This document shows, one piece after another, positions 53,239 through 64,000 of a stretch of DNA of 64,000 bases. The number at the start of each line of letters is the position of its first letter. The first letter of the stretch is position 1. A program made the position numbers and the translations under genes. Origin of the DNA: Aidingimonas halophila. Its GTDB lineage: Bacteria; Pseudomonadota; Gammaproteobacteria; Pseudomonadales; Halomonadaceae. The DNA lies in contig NZ_FNNI01000004.1 of NCBI RefSeq assembly GCF_900106955.1, positions 1 through 64,000 on the forward strand, read 5' to 3'. The notes under the pieces were generated by a model, which was not told where the DNA came from, did not search any database, and saw only the letters and a program-made list of their open reading frames with translations.

Positions 53239-53814
53239 TTACGACGGTAGCACGCCCTTGGACTTGGCAACATGCGTGGCGATGGCATCCATCAACGGGG
53301 GCGAGAGACAGTCGTAGGGCGTCAGCCCCAGCTCCTCGAGCCGCGAGCGAACACGGCCCATGTTTTCCGGCGGTGTCCCCGACTCGATGATCGACGAGAC
53401 GAAGGCGGCGAACTCGGGACCGGCCCAGCCATCTTCACGGGAAAGTTCAGTGTGAATGAAGTCCAGTCCATGGAAAGGATGGTTGGTGTCCTCGATACGA
53501 CCAAACATGTGGACACCGCATTCACGGCACGCATGGCGCTGGATCGCTGCGGAAGAGTCGACGACCGAAAGTTTGTCCTCGTTGGCGGTCACGCTGAGTG
53601 AATCGCGAGGTACGACGGCCACCATCGAGAACAGGGCGCCTTCCGGTTTCCAGCACTTGGTGCAGCCGCAGACATGGTTGTGGGCGCATTGGGCATTGAC
53701 GGTGACTTCTACCTTGTTGTCACTGCAATGACAATACAACTTGCCGCCCCCAAAGTCGTCGCGCCCTTTGGGCACACCGTTATCGACCGAGGGATGGATC
53801 TTGATGTCACTCAT
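53239..53814 (-). CDS. gfa: S-(hydroxymethyl)glutathione synthase (formaldehyde-activating)
   Basis: 191-aa Gfa-type zinc protein that speeds the condensation of formaldehyde with glutathione. [20 protein letters not shown] and [13 protein letters not shown] provide the Cys ligands of the family. ATG 53814 has AAGGAG eight bases upstream and gives the usual length. The frame continues upstream without stop to ATG 53952, which has a perfect Shine-Dalgarno, adding a 46-residue Gln/Pro/Ser-rich segment. Placed 248 bases beyond the pqqF gene and facing the same way, it fits formaldehyde removal downstream of XoxF. Confidence 0.9.
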
Positions 53815-53967
53815 GGATCGTTCTCCTTGGGAGCCCCCCGAAGGCTGTTCGCTGGTTGGATTGCGCGGTGGTTCCTGGGGTCGTTGTTGGTCGGAGGCGT
53901 GCTGACGACTGTCACCACGCAAGCTGGCCATGATTCGCGATAGCCACGACATTGGCGTCACCTCCTT
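53815..53967 (-). other. In-frame N-terminal extension of gfa with its own ribosome site
   Basis: On the minus strand AAGGAGGTGA (53958-53967), the full complement of the 16S anti-Shine-Dalgarno, sits five bases before ATG 53952. The resulting 46 residues start [14 protein letters not shown] (an amphipathic helix-like stretch) and continue with Gln, Pro and Ser. Whether translation from here yields a longer Gfa or a read-in relict is open. Confidence 0.55.
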
Positions 53968-54200
53968 GGTTGTGTGCAGCACCGTGCGAATTCCGCCAGT
54001 TACCGGGTTGGTAGGTGTATGGGAGCGTCACCTGGCGTTAGCTGCGTATTGTTGTGGTTGTCCGTTGTTACGTTTATGGCTTCCCTTGTCGACATCATCG
54101 ACATTGGCACCCACTAATGTGGGGGCTGGTTACAGTCTAGGTTAGCTTGGGCTTCCTGTTAGGCGCTGAATGACACAAGCCTATTGCCAAATGACAACAA

Positions 54201-56636
54201 TCACTCTCGTGACGCTCGTTCACTCTCATGTAGCCACCAGCAGCCGGGGAGTCGACCGTCGGCCAGTTGGGTAGCCAGCGTGATCAGGTCACCACTTTCG
54301 AGTTGGTCCAACACCCCTCTATCCGTTTCCCACGCCGGATGCGGCCCGTGGTCGGGCTGAGTGCGTAGAGCTTGCCAGCGCCTGGCAATCCCTTCCCACG
54401 CGGTTTCCGGCGCACCTACATGTGCCAAGAGATGTTGACGGCGATGTCGGAAGGTAGCGTCGTCCAGAGTCGCCAAGGCTTGGCCCGGATCAACCAGAAA
54501 GGTCTCGACCATGCCTTGCAGCGTTGCGATATCGGCATGTGGCGACTGAATGACGTAGCCGAGACGCGGCCAGCCTCCGCCCTCGCGATAACGGACGGCC
54601 GCGGCATAACCGAGTTCGCGACGAGTGCGGACCTCATGGTGAAATGCGCCATCGTGGCAACTTGCCAGTAGTTGCATGAGCAAGCGTGTTGCCGGGGTAT
54701 CGTCCGGCCCATCGACCTGCAGCATAAGGACATTGTCATGGCCCTGACATGACAGAAAGCGCTCGGGCCAGGGAGCGACATGCGTGATCGGCCCATGCGT
54801 GTCGGTTGCCGACGAACGAGTGACAGGTATCGTGTCGATCAAACGCTGAAGGCATTCAGGGGATACGGCGTGAGTCATCCAGCCACAGGCCGTCGGCATC
54901 GTGGACAAGGTCGCGAGCGGCTGGTCAAGGCGGTTGAGTAAGCGCTGGGCAATGAGCCCCTGAGAGGCATCGTGAGACGACATCGATGGCATGTCGCCCC
55001 GGGGCCAGGCGGCGATGACTTGCATGGCCAAGGAGGTCAGTCGTGAGGGATCGCCTTGGGCGATCAGGTAATCTCCGTATCGGTCACTAGCCAGAGACAG
55101 TGCCATGCCACGGGCGCTGGCCACCTGCCGTAACGCCAATGTCTTCTGTCGCCAATGCATCAGGCGTGACCGTCGTTGGGTCGGTTCGGCCGGCCAACCA
55201 AGGCAGCAGGCAGGCGGCAGTTCGCTTCCCCCTTGCCAGAAATGGATCCCCTCCAGGGGGAGGCGTCGTAATGACGTTTTGCGATGAGCCGGTCGGTATG
55301 CCAGACGTGGTGCTGCCCGAAGGGACATGAGTTGGGGGAGGTCACAGTCGATTTCGTGGGGCCGGATCGGGGTATGGGTCTCCGGCACATACGAGGAGAC
55401 CGATGACAGCGATGGCTGTCGTTCCAGTACCCGGCGATAGGTCGCTGCTAGCCAGTCCGATAGAACGGCCGGCGTCGTCGGTTCGCTGGCGAGGCGCGCT
55501 TGCATTGCTCGCCGGCGTGCGTGCATCAGGACCCTCGAGTCGAGATCCTGTTCCGGTCGGGGGGGCGATGCGATGGAATGGCGGTGGTCGTTATCCGGCA
55601 GGCGTGCAGCCAAGTCGGAAACGGCAGACTGGCATGTCGCAATGAGGGACAGTTTTTCGGTCACCGCTTGATGTGTATCGACAGACAGCGATAACGCAGG
55701 GCCCGTCCCTGTGGGGAAACGGCTCGCTTCGAGATGAGAGATGTCCGGGCCGAGAGAGGTTGCCAGTTGCCCGTCGTTCAACCAGGCAATGAGCCGGTCG
55801 AGTTGCTCGGTCTGCCGGACCGATAGGCGCATGGGGAGCGGCCAAAGGAGCTCGAGTCGTATTCCGTCGACAGCCCCTTGTTCTGCCGGTAAACACCATT
55901 GCAGATGCCTCGCGCCTTCCTCACGCCAGCGTGAGGGTCGGTCAACGTGCGGTTGGGCGCCAGGCGTGAAGCGGGTACCGGCGTGTTCCAGCCAGCCCAG
56001 CATATCGTCCAGCGGCTGTGGGCCCAGCATCGTGAGTTCGATGCGCTCGGCCCGGTAATGGTCGGTGTAAAAGCCCCGTAACGCCTGCTGCAGTGCCGAG
56101 GTGTCGCCGCCCAGGCTGACATGATGACCGTGACGAAGCTGACTCGCGGGATGTCGGTGGTGGAAGAAACGTGTCAATGCAGCTTGTCGATGCAGGAGAG
56201 GATCGGCGAGCCGGGCTCGGAACTCGGCATCGAGAATACCGACTTCATGAAGAATGGACTCCTTATCCAGCGCAGGGTGAAGCAGCCTGTCAGCCAGCCA
56301 CTCTGCCCCCGTTTCGGCGGCCGCTGAGGGCAGACGCAGATGAATGTCTGTAACGGTTTCGTCGGTATGAGCGTTGTAGCGACCGCCTTGAGTCGTGACC
56401 CAGGCCGTGTCGTAACGCTCCGGGGCACTTTCCAGGAACAGCAGGTGTTCCAATAGATGGGCCAGGCCGGGCCAGGTGTCAGGTTCATCGAGATAGCCGG
56501 CGCCGACGGTACCGACCAGCCGGGCCCAGCGAGCCTCGGGGACCTGGATTGCCAGCAGGCGCAATCCATTATCGAGCCGTTGTTCCTGATGACGCATTCC
56601 GGGCGGGAGACCGAAGGTAACGTCAGCCTGTTGCAT
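54201..56636 (-). CDS. pqqF: PQQ biosynthesis peptidase PqqF (M16 family)
   Basis: 811-aa zinc peptidase of the insulinase/pitrilysin type. The inverted zinc motif HLLEHLLF (about residues 62-69) and the downstream YNAHTDETVTDIHL supply the ligands. Its likely job is to cut PqqA-derived peptide after PqqE cross-linking. It is the last gene of the pqq operon, and its ATG overlaps the S9 peptidase stop by one base. Confidence 0.9.
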   Translation of the reverse strand: MQQADVTFGLPPGMRHQEQRLDNGLRLLAIQVPEARWARLVGTVGAGYLDEPDTWPGLAHLLEHLLFLESAPERYDTAWVTTQGGRYNAHTDETVTDIHLRLPSAAAETGAEWLADRLLHPALDKESILHEVGILDAEFRARLADPLLHRQAALTRFFHHRHPASQLRHGHHVSLGGDTSALQQALRGFYTDHYRAERIELTMLGPQPLDDMLGWLEHAGTRFTPGAQPHVDRPSRWREEGARHLQWCLPAEQGAVDGIRLELLWPLPMRLSVRQTEQLDRLIAWLNDGQLATSLGPDISHLEASRFPTGTGPALSLSVDTHQAVTEKLSLIATCQSAVSDLAARLPDNDHRHSIASPPRPEQDLDSRVLMHARRRAMQARLASEPTTPAVLSDWLAATYRRVLERQPSLSSVSSYVPETHTPIRPHEIDCDLPQLMSLRAAPRLAYRPAHRKTSLRRLPLEGIHFWQGGSELPPACCLGWPAEPTQRRSRLMHWRQKTLALRQVASARGMALSLASDRYGDYLIAQGDPSRLTSLAMQVIAAWPRGDMPSMSSHDASQGLIAQRLLNRLDQPLATLSTMPTACGWMTHAVSPECLQRLIDTIPVTRSSATDTHGPITHVAPWPERFLSCQGHDNVLMLQVDGPDDTPATRLLMQLLASCHDGAFHHEVRTRRELGYAAAVRYREGGGWPRLGYVIQSPHADIATLQGMVETFLVDPGQALATLDDATFRHRRQHLLAHVGAPETAWEGIARRWQALRTQPDHGPHPAWETDRGVLDQLESGDLITLATQLADGRLPGCWWLHESERASRE

Positions 56637-58474
56637 CAGCGATTCCCATGCCTGTCGAAGAATGCCAGTTCCCGAGCGATCATGCGACGCCGGTTGGCGG
56701 GATGTCGGATGCCGTGACCCTCTCCGGCGAACAACACCACCTCGGCCTGGTGGCCGGCCTGCCGCAGTGAGGATGCCATGCGTAGTGTCTGGTCGGGAAC
56801 CACGACACGATCCTGGGTGCCCTGAAAGAAGAGGGCGGGAGCCTGGAAGGCGTCGAGACGATTGACCGGGCTGCGTTGGAACTTGACGCTATCTTCCCCC
56901 AATAACCAGTCGAGATAGCCGGATTCGAAACGGTGAGTCTGGCCGGCCAGCCGCAACGCATCCGTCACTCCGTACAGGCTGGCGCCGGCACAATAGCGTG
57001 TCCCCGAGGCCAAGGTGTTGAGCACGGTGAAGCCGCCGGCACTTTGACCACGGATGAATAGACGCCGGGGATCGACACGCCCACTTTCGATCAATGCCTC
57101 GGCCAGGGCGTTGGCATCCTCGACATCCAATTGTCCCCAGCCTCCGGCCAGGCGTTCGCGATAGTCGCGTCCGAAATTGCCACTGCCCCGCGGATTGAGG
57201 TCGGCGACCGCATAGCCATGCTGTATCCAGTAATGGATCAGTGGATCGAAAACCGGGTAGCAGGCAGCCGTCGGTCCTCCATGAATGCGCACGATGAGCG
57301 GAGGAGGGCAGGCCGATGTCGTCTTTGTCGGTGTGTAGAGGAAAGCGTTGACTGTTTCCCGGTCGTTGATGCAGATGGACAGCGTTTCGGGGAGTGTCGG
57401 TGAATGGGTGGCCGGACTCGCCTGAAGGATCTGATGTCGCTGTTCGGTCAGATGCCAGCGCTCCAGTCTCGCGCTATGCGTCATGCCTTGGGTCAGTGCA
57501 TAGAGCCAAGGTCCATGCAACCCCAGGCCGATGATCCGGGTGACGTCGGGAAGCAGAGTCTTGAGGCGGCGGCCGCGGGTATCCACTTGAGACAGTCGTG
57601 TGCGGCCCTGTTCAAAATGCATCACGATGCCACCATGTTGATGCCAGACATGATGACAGTCGCCCAGCGTCCAGGGGGTGGGGACATGGTCCGCAGCGAC
57701 ATCGCCCAACGGCTGCAGGTTGTCACCGAGCCAGCGATAGGGTTGCCACCAGCCATGATGGTCGCTGATGACGATCAGCTCCCCCTCGTCACTGAAGCGG
57801 GGTTGCGTCACCGCCGCACCGCCATCCCATGACAGGCGTCGTTCGATGTGGCCATCTGAACTTAACGTGGCGATGCGCAACCAGGAGCGTTGCCAGGGCA
57901 TATCGGGCAGCGACCACTCCACCCAGGCGAGCGTGCGTCCATCCGGGGAGAGTGCCGGAGCCCCATAAAAATCGGCTCCCTCGGCAAGTATCTCGCGTCG
58001 ATGGTGCGTCAATGCGACCAGCCTTTGGCTGGCGTCTCGATGGCTGTCGGTCTCTTCGACAACGATCAGGCGCTGGCGTCGATCATCGGCCAGTAGTCCT
58101 CCATAACGTGTCTGTGAGCGGGACCACCAGAATGCCGGCGTTCCGCCTTCAACGGGATGACTCCAGAGCGCTTGGGTAGCGGCATCCACCGTGATGATGC
58201 GATCGCCAAGCAAGGCATGGGCACCACCGCCATAGCCATTGACCCGGCTCCCGATGTCGTGACCGGCATGGCTGATGGCATGACAATGCTCGTCATGCCA
58301 GCGCCATAGGCGACGGTGTCCACTGTCAGAATCGGTAGCCAGCCAGAAGATACCCGCTGTGGTGACACGCAGGTCGCTGAGTCCATCGGCGGGTAGCGAG
58401 GCGGCTGCCAGGTCGGCTTCTTGTGTGCTGTTTGGTCGGATCCTGGCAAATTCGGGGTGGGCCGGCAGTGTCAT
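56636..58474 (-). CDS. S9-family (prolyl oligopeptidase-like) peptidase in the pqq operon
   Basis: 612 aa. An N-terminal beta-propeller-like half is followed by an alpha/beta hydrolase with nucleophile GQSAGG, Asp in GTQDRVV and His in GEGHGIRHP. Pseudomonads have similar genes in their PQQ clusters, where a role in peptide degradation during maturation is suspected. It overlaps pqqE (four bases) and pqqF (one base), so it is a fixed part of the operon. Confidence 0.85.
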
Positions 58475-59622
58475 GCGCGACAGAACACCCGGGATTCATG
58501 GACATTGCGTGGCGTCAACTGTGCCGCCTTCCGCTTATCCTCACTGGCTTCGCGGCGCGCCGATTCGATCAGGTGGTGGTGCGGAGAGAATTCGCATACA
58601 GGATCCGTCGCCGTCGGGTCGCCGGTCAGCAGATAGGCCTGGCAACGGCAGCCACCGAAATCCTGGTGGCGTTCATCGCAGTCGCGGCAGGGGGACGGCA
58701 TCCAGTCCTCGCCGCGGTAACGATTGAACGCGTCACTGTCGTACCAGATCCATTCCAGTGAATCATCTCGGGCGTTGGGGAAGGACATCGGCAGCATGCG
58801 TGCACTATGGCAGGGGAGTACCGCTCCATCGGGTGCCACGCTCATGAAGATCGACCCCCAGCCGCCCATGCAGGCCTTGGGTCTGTCGGCGTAGTAGTCC
58901 GGTACGACGAACAGCAACTGCATGTCACGACCCTCGCGGGAAAGACGCTCACGCCAGCGGACGGTCGTGGCTTCGGCAGTCTCGAGTTGCTCTCGGCTGG
59001 GGAGCAGGCCGTTACGATTGAGATGTGCCCAGCCGTAGAGCTGGCAGTTGGCCAGTTCGACGGCATCGGCGTCGAGTTCGGCACAGAGCGCAATGATGGC
59101 GTCGAGTTGATCGATGTTGTGCCGATGAAGGACGACGTTGAGCACCATCGGATAGCCGGCTGCCTTGACGGCACGGGCCATCGCCAGCTTCTTGTCATAA
59201 GCCTTGCGGGAGCCGGCAACCGCCTCGGCGACATCCGGGTCCGATGCCTGCAGGCTGATTTGGATATGATCGAGCCCCGCCGCATGCAAGGTGTCGATTC
59301 TGGCCTCATCGAGACCTAACCCGGAGGTGATCAGGTTGGAGTAGAATCCCAACTGCCTGGCTTCGCCAACGAGGGTTTCCAGGTCGCGTCGCACCAAGGG
59401 CTCGCCGCCGGAAAAGCCCAGTTGGACAGCCCCCATTGCCCGTGCCTGACGCAATACATCAACCCACTCTTCCGTCGTCAACTCGTTATTGGTAGTGGCG
59501 GCGAAATCCAAAGGATTGGAACAGTAGCTGCATTGCAGCGGGCAACGGTACGTCAGTTCGGCAAGCAGCCATAAAGGCGCTTCCGGTGTCGGCTTCTGTG
59601 TGGATGTGGCATGTTCATTCAT
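58471..59622 (-). CDS. pqqE: PqqA peptide cyclase (radical SAM)
   Basis: 383-aa radical SAM enzyme that forms the Glu-Tyr carbon-carbon bond in PqqA with help of PqqD. The SAM cluster is CPLQCSYC near residue 28. A C-terminal SPASM domain contains Cys-rich [19 protein letters not shown] 59622 is chosen since it matches the family start and overlaps the pqqD end by eight bases, implying coupling. The upstream open frame into pqqD is not coding. Confidence 0.95.
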
Positions 59623-59890
59623 GATGAATCCACCCCTGCTGAACGGCCTCGTCGAGAAACTCGTGCACGTCCGTTTGCAGTTCATCGGCGGGGGCTTGTG
59701 GATAGCGGCTTCGCAATTCGGTGATGACATCGCCGACATTGCGCTCGCCATCAATCAGAGACAATATCGCTCCGGCACTGTCATTCAGCTTTACCATTCC
59801 CTCTGGATAGAGCAGTACATGGCGTCCCTGGGCTTCTTCCCACTGTAGACGCCAGCCAGGACGTAAGCGATAGATACGATCATCCTTCAT
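59615..59890 (-). CDS. pqqD: PQQ biosynthesis chaperone PqqD
   Basis: 91-aa RRE-type peptide chaperone that presents PqqA to Pqq[26 protein letters not shown] and [14 protein letters not shown] are the family core (key parts RPGWRLQWE and LYPEG). Its ATG overlaps the pqqC stop by four bases. Normal length. Confidence 0.95.
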
Positions 59891-60666
59891 GATAGTCCCC
59901 GGTGATAGACACGTTGCTCGGTTACAGTGTGATAGGGTGGCCGCCCGAGCTGATAGGCCATCGTCATGGCATCGAGCATGCTCCAGAGAACGTCGAGCTT
60001 GAACTGGAGGATCTCGAGGGCACGCGCCTGGGCCTGGGCCGTCGTACAGAGTGACAGCGCCAATTCCAGACCGTGCTCCACATCGCGTCGGGCTTCACCG
60101 AGCCGTTTGCGGAAATAGTCGTAGCCATGGCTATCGATCCAGGGGTAGTGCGTCGGCCAGGTATCGAGGCGGCTTTTGTGGGCCTGGGGGGCGAACAGTT
60201 CAGTGAGCGATGAAATGGCGGCCTCGCGCCAGTCCGCACGGCGCACGAAGTTCACATAGGCATCCACCGCGAACCGTACTCCCGGTAGAACGTGTTCCTG
60301 AGACCACAATTCGTCACGACTCAGGCCGACCGCTTCCCCCAGCCGTAGCCAGGCCTCGATGCCTCCCGTGTCGTCATCGTGACCATCGTGATCGAGCAGT
60401 CGCTGAACCCAGCGTCGCCGCGTGGCGGCATCGGGGCAATTGGCCAGCAGCGCGGCATCCTTCTGCGGGATCATGACCTGATAATAGAAACGGTTGGCCA
60501 CCCAACCACGTATCTGCTCGGCCGTGGCTCGACCCTCGGCCATGTCGAACTGATAGGGGTGATGAATATGATAGTAGTCTCCCTTTGCCATCAGGGCGGC
60601 ACGAAAACTGTCGCGGTCGAGTGGCTGACCGTCCGCAGCGGCAAAAGGGGACGCAATCGTTGCCAT
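59887..60666 (-). CDS. pqqC: Pyrroloquinoline-quinone synthase
   Basis: 259-aa heme-oxygenase-fold oxidase that performs the last ring closure and eight-electron oxidation to PQQ without metal or cofactor. [21 protein letters not shown] and [12 protein letters not shown] contain the active-site His and Tyr. It follows pqqB after 55 bases and is coupled to pqqD. Confidence 0.96.
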
Positions 60667-60721: not shown

Positions 60722-61651
60722 TTATAGTTTCCAGTACATACCATCGTAGGCAACTTCCACCCCTCGCGTGTCTAGCATGGCACGCTCTTCGGAGTGCTCG
60801 TCGAGGATCGGATTGGTGTTGTTGATATGAATCAGAATGCGCCGTGTCGACTCTGGCAGGGCATCCAGTTCCGTCAGCAGGCCTGATTCCCCCGACAGGG
60901 CCAGGTGTCCCATGTCGGCCCCGGTGGACTGTCCGGCACCAAGACGCTGCATCTCATCATCCCGCCAGAGCGTGCCGTCGACCAGCACGCAGTCGGCGCG
61001 TCGCATCCATTCCCGCAGCTCCGCATCGGGTCGCCCCAGGCCCGGGGCATAGAATAGCGAGCCGCCACTGTCGGAATCCTCGATGAACAGACCAATATTG
61101 TCACCAGGTGAAGGAGCGCCTCGGCGGGGAGAGTAAGGGGGCGCATTGCTATGGATTGCCACAGCGGTGAAGGTCAGCTCGGGGCAACAGTCGATGTCGA
61201 AAGATACATGACGCTTTTCGTCATTGATATCGATGGGGCGCCAATGCAGCCCTCCCTGCCAATGGTCGAGCATCGGGAACAGGGGAAAACCGGTACTCAA
61301 GTCCTGATGCACATTGGGGGTACACCAGACATCCAGTGGACACCCCTCGCGCAGCGACAACAACCCTGTGACATGATCGATCTGGGCATCGACCAGCAGC
61401 ACGGCCACAATACCCGTATCGCGGATGCCGCGGCGTGGATGGAGGGGCGGATTGGCGTTGATCTGGGCACGCACATCGGGAGAGGCATTGCATAGCAACC
61501 AGCGGCTGCCGTCAGTGCTCACGGCAATGGAGGATTGTGTCCTTTCGCAGGCGGTGACGCTGCCGGTTCTAACGCCCTGGCAATATTGGCAATGGCAGTT
61601 CCATTGTGGGAAACCGCCGCCAGCTGCCGACCCCAGTACCAGTACATGCAT
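60722..61651 (-). CDS. pqqB: PQQ biosynthesis protein PqqB
   Basis: 309-aa metallo-beta-lactamase-fold iron/zinc protein; it hydroxylates the cross-linked Tyr-Glu intermediate. [13 protein letters not shown] starts the domain and CHCQYC is the zinc-binding set. It follows pqqA after a hairpin that may limit read-through. Confidence 0.95.
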
Positions 61652-61736: not shown

Positions 61737-61808
61737 TCAACGGTTGGCGATATAGAGAGTCACTTCGAAGCCCAAACGCAGATCGGTATAAGCCGGCTTG
61801 GTCCACAT
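61737..61808 (-). CDS. pqqA: PQQ precursor peptide PqqA
   Basis: 23-residue peptide beginning [17 protein letters not shown] and containing the E-x-x-x-Y pair Glu15 and Tyr19 that PqqE links to become PQQ. AGGAGA lies upstream of the ATG. It is too short for ORF callers. First gene of the operon, facing away from xoxF. Confidence 0.97.
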
Positions 61809-62197: not shown

Positions 62198-64000
62198 ATG
62201 CTTCGGGAATTCAGCTATGCCATAGCGGCTATCGGGTTGGCCGTATCCGCTCAGGCTCATGCCAATGAAAATTTGCTCGAGCTACAAGAAAACCCGGAAT
62301 ACTGGTCGACTCAGCTGGGTAACTATCAGGGCAATCGTTTCAGCAAGCTCGACCAGATCAACCGTGACAACGTCGATGAATTGAGTGCGCAGTGGCAATT
62401 TTCCACTGGGGTGCTGCGCGGTCATGAGGGCGGTCCGCTGTATGTCGGTGACGGTAAGCTCTATATCCACACCCCGTTCCCCAACAAGGTGTTTGCCTTG
62501 GACCTTGAGGACAATGGGCGCGTGGTCTGGAGCTATGAACCGGACCAGGATTCACGCGTGATCCCGGTCATGTGCTGTGACACCGTCAACCGGGGGCTGG
62601 CCTACGCCGATGGACGGCTGTTCATCGGTCAGGCTGACAACACGCTGGTGGCGCTCGACTCCGAGGATGGGGAGGTCCTCTGGGAAGCCGAGAACGGTGA
62701 TCACACCAAGGGGGAATCCAACACCATGTCGCCGCTGGTCGTGGGTGACAAGGTCATCATGGGCATCAGTGGCGGCGAATTCGGTGTTCGAGGGCACCTG
62801 ACGGCCTATAACGTCGAAACCGGTGAACGGGAGTGGCGTGCCTACTCCAACGGACCGGATGAAGACGTGAAGCTCGATCCGGAAGAAACTCTGATGATGG
62901 GGGAACCTGTCGGCGAGGAGGATCTGGGCGAAACCACTTGGCCCGATGAGGAATGGGAACGCGGTGGTGGTGCACCCTGGGGTTGGGTGACTTACGATCC
63001 GGAACTCGACCTGATCTACTACGGCACGGGTAACCCCGGTACCTGGAATCCGGATCAGCGCACAGTCGACGGCGAGCCCGCCGATAACAAGTGGGCGATC
63101 ACCGTCTTCGCCCGGGATCCGGATACGGGGGAAGCCAAGTGGGTCTATCAGAAAGTACCCTTTGATGAGTGGGACTATGACGGTGTCAACGAGAACCAGT
63201 TGATCGATGTCGAGATCGATGGCGAGCAGCGCAAAGGGCTGGCCATCATCGATCGTACCGGCTTCGGTTTCCTGCTCGACCGCGAGAATGGGGAGCTGCT
63301 GGTGGCAGAGAAGTTCGCCGAGGAGACCAACTGGGCGGATAGCTACGACATGGAGACCGGTCGTCCCAACGTCAATGAAGAGTACAGCACCTGGCGGCAG
63401 GGTGTGGATGTCAACACGACCGACATCTGCCCGACAGCCATGGGCGCGAAGAACATGCAGCCCAGTGCCTATTCACCTGAAACTGGCCTGATCTATGCCG
63501 GGATCAACCGGATCTGCATGGACTATGAGCCCTATGAGGTCGATTATACCGCCGGTCAGCCTTATGTCGGTGCCACACTGAACATGAAGCCGGCCCCGCT
63601 GCAGGATGAGAACGGCATGGAAGGCCGCATGGGCAGCTTCATCGCCTGGGACCCCGTCAAGGGTGAAAAGGTCTGGGAGGTCGACGAGCGCTTCGCGGTC
63701 TGGAGCGGCGCACTGGCCACGGCCGGAGATCTCGCCTTCTATGGCACGCTCGAGGGACACCTGAAGGCCGTCGACATCGAGACCGGTGAAGAGCTGTGGA
63801 GCTTCAAGACACCGTCCGGGATCATCGGCAACGTCAATACCTTCCAGCATGAAGGCAAGCAGTATATCGCTGTCCTCTCCGGGGTCGGTGGCTGGGCCGG
63901 TATCGGTCTCGCTGCGGGTCTGGAAGATCCCGAGGAAGGCCTGGGGGCTGTCGGTGCCTTCTCGGCGCTCGAGGATTACACGGAGTTGGGTGGTGTGCTG
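62198..64000 (+). CDS. xoxF: PQQ-dependent lanthanide-type methanol dehydrogenase (XoxF-like), 5' part
   Basis: At least 601 codons, no stop before the window's end. A signal peptide ends near AQA-HA. An eight-bladed propeller fold is expected, with the vicinal disulfide Cys126-Cys127 in [15 protein letters not shown], Glu194, Asn279 and the catalytic Asp326. Asp328 follows in EWDYDGVNE: this extra Asp is the mark of lanthanide-using enzymes, where Ca-type MxaF has Ala. [13 protein letters not shown] and RGHEGG fit XoxF rather than the ethanol-type ExaA. Acts in the periplasm with a cytochrome outside the window. GGAGAT precedes the ATG. Confidence 0.9.

Follow-up and report, generated by a model that had tools for sequence, protein, structure and literature searches.

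The locus at the downstream end of this stretch raises the question of whether a heterotrophic halomonad carries a rare-earth-dependent system for oxidising methanol. The window, by which we mean the whole 64,000 nucleotides of Aidingimonas halophila DNA analysed, covers positions 1-64000 of contig C14 in a 3.89-Mb genome of 21 contigs, and positions above 64000 refer to the same contig beyond it. Gene integrity, clade, residues, neighbours, co-occurrence and the presence of oxidation genes could all be established. The best explanation, to which we assign a probability of roughly 0.85, is that the locus encodes a periplasmic PQQ-dependent lanthanide alcohol dehydrogenase of the XoxF5 type, most likely acting on methanol, together with an XoxG-like cytochrome, XoxJ, PQQ synthesis, a transporter and a route of oxidation for energy.

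The xoxF5 open reading frame begins with the ATG at 62198 and runs for 609 codons to a stop at C14:64027, 27 bases past the end of the window; the frame and C-terminus beyond the window, which a preliminary description had left for checking, are intact and free of frameshifts. The protein scored 695 bits against TIGR03075 (methanol/ethanol PQQ dehydrogenase; cut-off 480). Its top matches among solved structures were 6oc5 (M. extorquens XoxF1, 802 bits), 6dam (M. buryatense XoxF, 783) and 4mae (XoxF2 of strain SolV, 628), with the MxaF-like chain 9ism (619), other MxaF proteins (567-608), the XoxF1-type 7o6z (574) and PedH/ExaA (325-358 bits) ranking lower. The predicted model (mean pLDDT 80.3, residues 415-419 poor) was closest in fold to 6oc5 (Z 53.3, rmsd 1.7, 570 aligned), tied with 6dam (52.7), then to 4mae (51.3), MxaF 4tqo (51.1), PedH (45.7) and ExaA (44.3). 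The modelled fold sets the methanol type apart from the ethanol type and hardly separates XoxF from MxaF. By itself it leaves some room for an MxaF- or ExaA-type calcium enzyme that happens to carry an Asp at the metal site.

Phylogeny was more informative. We built a maximum-likelihood tree of 61 proteins (52 of the 88 proteins from loci outside the window, eight PDB rows and the window protein), without XoxF3 and XoxF4 references. The window protein fell within the XoxF5 clade (51 of the 61 rows, support 100/99), which also holds 6oc5, 6dam and a Sagittula protein annotated as XoxF5, in agreement with the XoxF assignment proposed earlier. It did not lie among the calcium enzymes: the three MxaF rows form the sister group outside XoxF5 (joined at 99/96), and the four PedH/ExaA rows are far away, with no grouping of the window protein with PedH. 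Long branches make the placement of 4mae, 7o6z and a Mesorhizobium row weak or doubtful. Inside XoxF5, the window protein belongs to a subclade of 23 sampled rows (support 100/100, stem 0.49) from Halomonadaceae, Ectothiorhodospiraceae and Aquisalimonas MAGs, a Rhodovibrio MAG, a Rhodobacteraceae MAG and Aquamicrobium; its neighbours in the tree are Rhodovibrio sodomensis (92/95), Inquilinus (82/95) and Azospirillum and its kin (84/99). We refer to it as the halophile subclade, a label that we take from member names and general knowledge; Aquamicrobium zhengzhouense may not be a halophile, and MAG names may be wrong. This mixture of gamma- and alphaproteobacterial members, some of them MAGs, suggests transfer between lineages. 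Among the best 80 of 175 relatives, the closest named one is Aidingimonas lacisalsi (93%), in keeping with the halomonad-like host of the preliminary description, and numerous species of Halomonas, Billgrantia, Litchfieldella, Modicisalibacter and Vreelandella come after it; a 93% XoxF is likewise found in a further genome that GTDB assigns to the host's genus. That XoxF5 itself occurs widely across the Alpha-, Beta- and Gammaproteobacteria had been established before, according to the parts consulted of PMC6028718 and PMC11996626.

The residues of the metal site point in the same direction. Cys126-Cys127, Glu194, Asn279 and Asp326-Tyr-Asp328 are present exactly as first described, counted from the ATG at 62198, and predict a lanthanide-type site. 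In the tree alignment, residue 328 is Asp in all rows of the halophile subclade (23/23) and of the other XoxF5 (28/28), Ala in the three MxaF rows, and split between Asp (two) and Ser (two) in PedH/ExaA; WDYDG spans this position in 32/32 halomonad loci from the named-genome scan. Because PFDEWDYD was among the seeds of the search for relatives, the uniformity of D-x-D among the fetched loci is partly selected. Moreover, the motif alone is insufficient and context counts, since a glucose-dehydrogenase-like quinoprotein of the same genome (C19:271099-272688, 676 aa, named by eye) also has D-Y-D, within DIWDYD. A calcium enzyme would find some support in N419 and A259-P260, which resemble MxaF or PedH/ExaA and differ from most XoxF5, but the lanthanide enzymes 6dam (XoxF) and 6zcw (PedH) have the Asn of N419 as well. 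No MxaI was found in the genome with a model that was also silent in 14 control genomes and that matches in a Paracoccus record. Based on the tree, residue 328 and the missing MxaI, we rejected a calcium enzyme of the MxaF/ExaA kind; the XoxG/XoxJ and PedABC neighbours described below argue against it as well, and we regard it as very unlikely. Our confidence in a lanthanide XoxF5 enzyme is high.

The halophile subclade also has marks of its own. Thr354 stands in place of the Asn of DRNG in 23/23 subclade rows, against Asn in 38/38 other rows of the tree alignment, and follows Arg353, presumably the arginine that contacts PQQ. Among the 80 XoxF loci retrieved as the best of 175 relatives, 38 have DRTG and 42 DRNG; 16 of the 38 DRTG loci are outside the tree and are placed in the subclade by identity and motif. 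Thr354 is not unique to the subclade among quinoproteins, as a distant enzyme of genome G182 (32% identical, D-L-D) has it too. Other marks are V320, R438 and an extra G86 (each 23/23) and F358 (22/23), and A259-P260, present in most PedH/ExaA rows, is found in most subclade rows too. Acidity is a feature of the protein as a whole (pI 4.12), and mean pI is 4.24 in the 23 subclade rows versus 5.59 (overlapping range 4.22-7.72) in the other 28 XoxF5 rows. An acidic insert at residues 282-289 had been proposed as a host-specific adaptation. That stretch reads TWNPDQRT, and the residues that are extra relative to M. extorquens XoxF1 lie at about 289-293 (TVDGE). We rejected the adaptation because the insertion is shared, at the same place and with similar length, by XoxF5 of Alphaproteobacteria outside the subclade (Azospirillum, Inquilinus, Hyphomicrobium, Bosea); only the acidic composition of the insert reflects how acidic the protein is overall. 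As a tentative idea, which we think has less than an even chance of being right, this could be a salt-adapted XoxF5 subclade, spread over several families of mainly halophiles, in which the altered active-site surroundings (DRTG) shift metal or substrate preference, so that heterotrophs of salt lakes would use rare earths to oxidise methanol or another alcohol purely as an energy source.

We then considered the neighbouring genes (Table 1). The preliminary description had placed the dehydrogenase next to its own PQQ operon and gfa, and both are present, gfa being some 8 kb away, past the far end of the operon. A pqqA-like open reading frame is divergent from xoxF in 32/32 halomonad loci. Among the halomonad loci with 10 kb of upstream DNA, gfa lies within 10 kb upstream of xoxF in 12/16, and formaldehyde is therefore indicated. 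The S9 peptidase in the operon was detected in 7/32 halomonad loci, a count that ignores contig ends; that it acts in PqqA processing is a guess.

Table 1. Genes of the xoxF5 locus on contig C14 of A. halophila and the basis of their naming.
Feature	Position	Strand	Basis
gfa, S-(hydroxymethyl)glutathione synthase	53239..53982	-	TIGR02820 over cut-off
pqqF-like metalloprotease	54201..56636	-	TIGR02110 below cut-off
S9-type prolyl oligopeptidase, in pqq operon between pqqE and pqqF-like gene	56636..58474	-	PF00326
pqqE, likely ATG at 59622	58471..59622	-	TIGR02109 over cut-off
pqqD	59615..59890	-	position and conservation, same place in relatives
pqqC	59887..60666	-	TIGR02111 over cut-off
pqqB	60722..61651	-	TIGR02108 over cut-off
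pqqA, 23-residue PQQ precursor peptide, divergent from xoxF	61737..61808	-	named by eye
xoxF5, PQQ-dependent alcohol (methanol) dehydrogenase, predicted lanthanide site	62198..64000 in window, on to 64027	+	profile, residues, tree, model fold
xoxG-like cytochrome	C14:64202-64726	+	best solved match XoxG 6onq, 1.3e-22
xoxJ, binding protein	C14:64732-65601	+	best solved match XoxJ 6onp, 1.3e-56; MxaJ 5.1e-21
orf212, probably exported helical protein	C14:65598-66236 (L009:4099-4737)	+	ORF, model
PedA1-type substrate-binding gene	about C14:66260-67525	+	model over curated cut-off
PedA2-type YVTN gene	about C14:67513-68490	+	model over curated cut-off
PedB-type ATPase gene	about C14:68487-69251	+	model over curated cut-off
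PedC-type permease gene	about C14:69248-70051	+	model over curated cut-off

Directly 3' of xoxF, beyond the window, are both of the partners sought earlier, xoxG and xoxJ; the XoxG-like cytochrome scores 98.7 against TIGR03874, below the cut-off of 161.75. After xoxJ comes orf212, which has two invariant cysteines (Cys39 and Cys191) in an alignment of 29 sequences and homologues close to xoxF5 in halomonads, Azospirillum, Sinorhizobium, Bosea and Hyphomicrobiaceae. Its model (pLDDT 89.8) gave 415 fold matches in the PDB, none with E below 0.19 and the top 50 mostly coiled-coil or helical-bundle proteins, and we claim no function for it because none of these matches is significant. The four genes that follow are of the PedA1A2BC/Lut type, which makes them a probable lanthanide importer by analogy: in P. 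putida KT2440 the order is likewise pedA1, pedA2, pedB, pedC and the transporter is required for La-dependent growth (PMC6839425; PMC12997753, both in part), and the Lut ABC transporter of M. extorquens plays the same role (PMC7391723, in part). A NitT/TauT-like ABC transporter (binding protein, permease and ATPase; C14:70903-73411, minus strand) lies beside the locus; its binding protein and permease were detected in 4/32 halomonad loci and, elsewhere, close to XoxF5 in S. meliloti, Inquilinus and Rhodovibrio sodomensis.

The same loci bear on whether the gene could be a broken or silent relic, a reading to which its patchy occurrence (same-subclade XoxF at 82% identity or more in 32/201 halomonad genomes and 7/24 genera) lends some weight. 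The frame and key residues are intact, however, and the order from xoxF to PedC is complete in 31/32 halomonad loci; the remaining locus is on a contig of 7.5 kb. We consider a relic about as improbable as a calcium enzyme, if not slightly more so.

We followed the distribution of the transporter in an even sample of 201 halomonad genomes from a larger group, with thresholds of E <=1e-50 for PQQ alcohol dehydrogenases and E <=1e-60 for the PedC permease model. PQQ alcohol dehydrogenases were found in 44/201 genomes and PedC in 38/201, 37 of the latter over the cut-off. All 33 XoxF genomes have PedC, namely the 32 with the same-subclade XoxF and one (G121) with another XoxF5; of the 32, G117 has a partial PedC match that stays below the cut-off and contains a stop. 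The remaining five PedC genomes have PedH-like or distant enzymes only, and each has at least one enzyme with Asp328; two also carry a Ser copy, and the distant D-L-D enzyme of G182 is among them. PedC was found in 0/6 genomes whose only PQQ alcohol dehydrogenases have Ser (five) or Thr (one) at residue 328, and in 0/157 genomes without a PQQ alcohol dehydrogenase. Residue 328 was read in all 13 dehydrogenase open reading frames outside the XoxF genomes (seven in the five PedC genomes, six in the six without PedC), and in seven of the 11 second, PedH-like copies in XoxF genomes, all seven being Asp. From this distribution, the transporter tracks D-x-D enzymes rather than PQQ alcohol dehydrogenases as such, which indirectly supports a lanthanide transporter, the 201 genomes not being independent trials because they are related, for which reason we do not read Fisher values on these counts as probabilities. 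In G121 (loci L110 and L111), the XoxF5 is 63% identical, with DQWDYDG and the ordinary DRNG, and adjoins a PedC-type permease and pqq-like genes; it is probably an independent acquisition within the same family. A second XoxF-like gene of G121 (48%) adjoins cytochrome-oxidase-like genes, named by eye.

It had also been suggested that the organism has a working rare-earth C1 oxidation system. The oxidation genes are indeed complete: besides gfa, FrmA (731 bits) and FghA (430 bits) are adjacent on contig C10, and a formate dehydrogenase alpha subunit scores over its cut-off. Strict methylotrophy, on the other hand, is unsupported because no assimilation route was found, the serine cycle being covered in part. 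Profile searches of the genome gave no match for Fae or formate-THF ligase, the two proteins through which the serine cycle was probed, and for RuMP the hexulose-phosphate synthase model reached 23.6 bits against a cut-off of 200. The sole RuBisCO-family protein fits the OiaX model best (469 bits, cut-off 700), with RuBisCO models lower still, and on this ranking, which covers the RuBisCO side of the pathway, we rejected the hit as a sign of a Calvin cycle. The gene for this protein (C14:264278-265126) adjoins an acid-sugar-kinase-like open reading frame, the kinase being named by eye. With oxidation genes present and no assimilation gene matched among those searched, methanol, if it is the substrate, would most likely be burnt to CO2 for energy.

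Whether methanol is the substrate is a question on which our confidence is moderate. The C-terminal 12-residue segment, which we take to contribute to the substrate pocket, matches M. extorquens XoxF1 residue for residue and is unlike PedH/ExaA, and the recurrent gfa upstream speaks for formaldehyde as the product. Both count against the view that this is a lanthanide XoxF5 that naturally acts on a primary alcohol other than methanol (ethanol, ethylene glycol or one with a longer chain), serving general alcohol use by a heterotroph. That view gains from the lack of any C1 assimilation route among those searched (the serine cycle in part) and from the subclade's own residues near the metal-site motifs. 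According to the sections consulted of PMC6028718, XoxF4 and XoxF5 enzymes have broad substrate specificity, so methanol may not be the natural substrate; PMC11166783, also in part, describes an Ideonella sakaiensis XoxF that prefers long-chain alcohols and ethylene glycol use by a Halomonas. On balance we regard another alcohol as possible but rather unlikely.

For a methanol-oxidising XoxF5, we infer the metal, substrate, electron path, transport and physiology as follows. A lanthanide ion would be held by Glu194, Asn279, Asp326 and Asp328, and the enzyme would turn methanol into formaldehyde, accept other small primary alcohols too, and hand the electrons to the XoxG-like cytochrome. Loading of cofactor and metal may be aided by XoxJ, PQQ would be supplied by the divergent pqq operon, and the lanthanide would cross the inner membrane through the PedA1A2BC/Lut-type transporter. 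Gfa, FrmA and FghA would then take formaldehyde to formate, which formate dehydrogenase would oxidise to CO2, so that the heterotroph would gain energy, not carbon.

These findings add about one in six of the sampled halomonad genomes to the range of predicted rare-earth-dependent alcohol oxidation. Halomonads are used in biotechnology, and the locus brings together, in culturable heterotrophs, an enzyme, its cofactor synthesis, an electron carrier, a chaperone and a probable importer in compact form, while the subclade residues offer a natural variant of a well-studied active site. We found no report of a lanthanide methanol dehydrogenase or xoxF in Halomonadaceae in the open-licence literature searched, and a description elsewhere is possible. 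In the portions consulted, mentions of Halomonas in PMC11356471 and PMC11166783 are incidental, PMC11356471 and PMC8977859 are not about this system, and Halomonas or Halo- does not occur in the XoxF5 papers PMC11996626 and PMC6028718.

In conclusion, this is a complete and well-preserved XoxF5 locus of a known kind, in a family for which the literature searched yielded no report. It shares clade, metal-site residues and fold with the XoxF5 methanol dehydrogenases 6oc5, 6dam and that of Sagittula sp. P11, the last of which also has xoxG- and xoxJ-type genes downstream. The identity to 6oc5 and 6dam is 58-60%, and the halomonad protein differs from known XoxF5 in DRTG instead of DRNG, the extra G86, V320, F358, R438 and the pI of 4.12. 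With MxaF, the calcium methanol dehydrogenase, it shares family and fold, whereas MxaF has Ala at the Asp328 position and its MxaI gene, present in the Paracoccus record, was not found here. The loci of Sinorhizobium meliloti and Azospirillum ramasamyi have xoxF, a cytochrome, an XoxJ-type gene and a PQQ-ABC set in common with the halomonad locus, and an orf212 homologue nearby, but gene order and strands differ: fae and formylmethanofuran genes adjoin xoxF in A. ramasamyi and FrmA/FghA in S. meliloti, whereas the halomonad has pqqA-E divergent from xoxF, with FrmA/FghA on a separate contig. Finally, the transporter set has the same substrate-binding, YVTN, ATPase and permease components, in pedA1, A2, B, C order, as PedA1A2BC of P. 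putida and probably also Lut of M. extorquens, and it adjoins XoxF in the halomonad where it adjoins PedE/PedH in P. putida.
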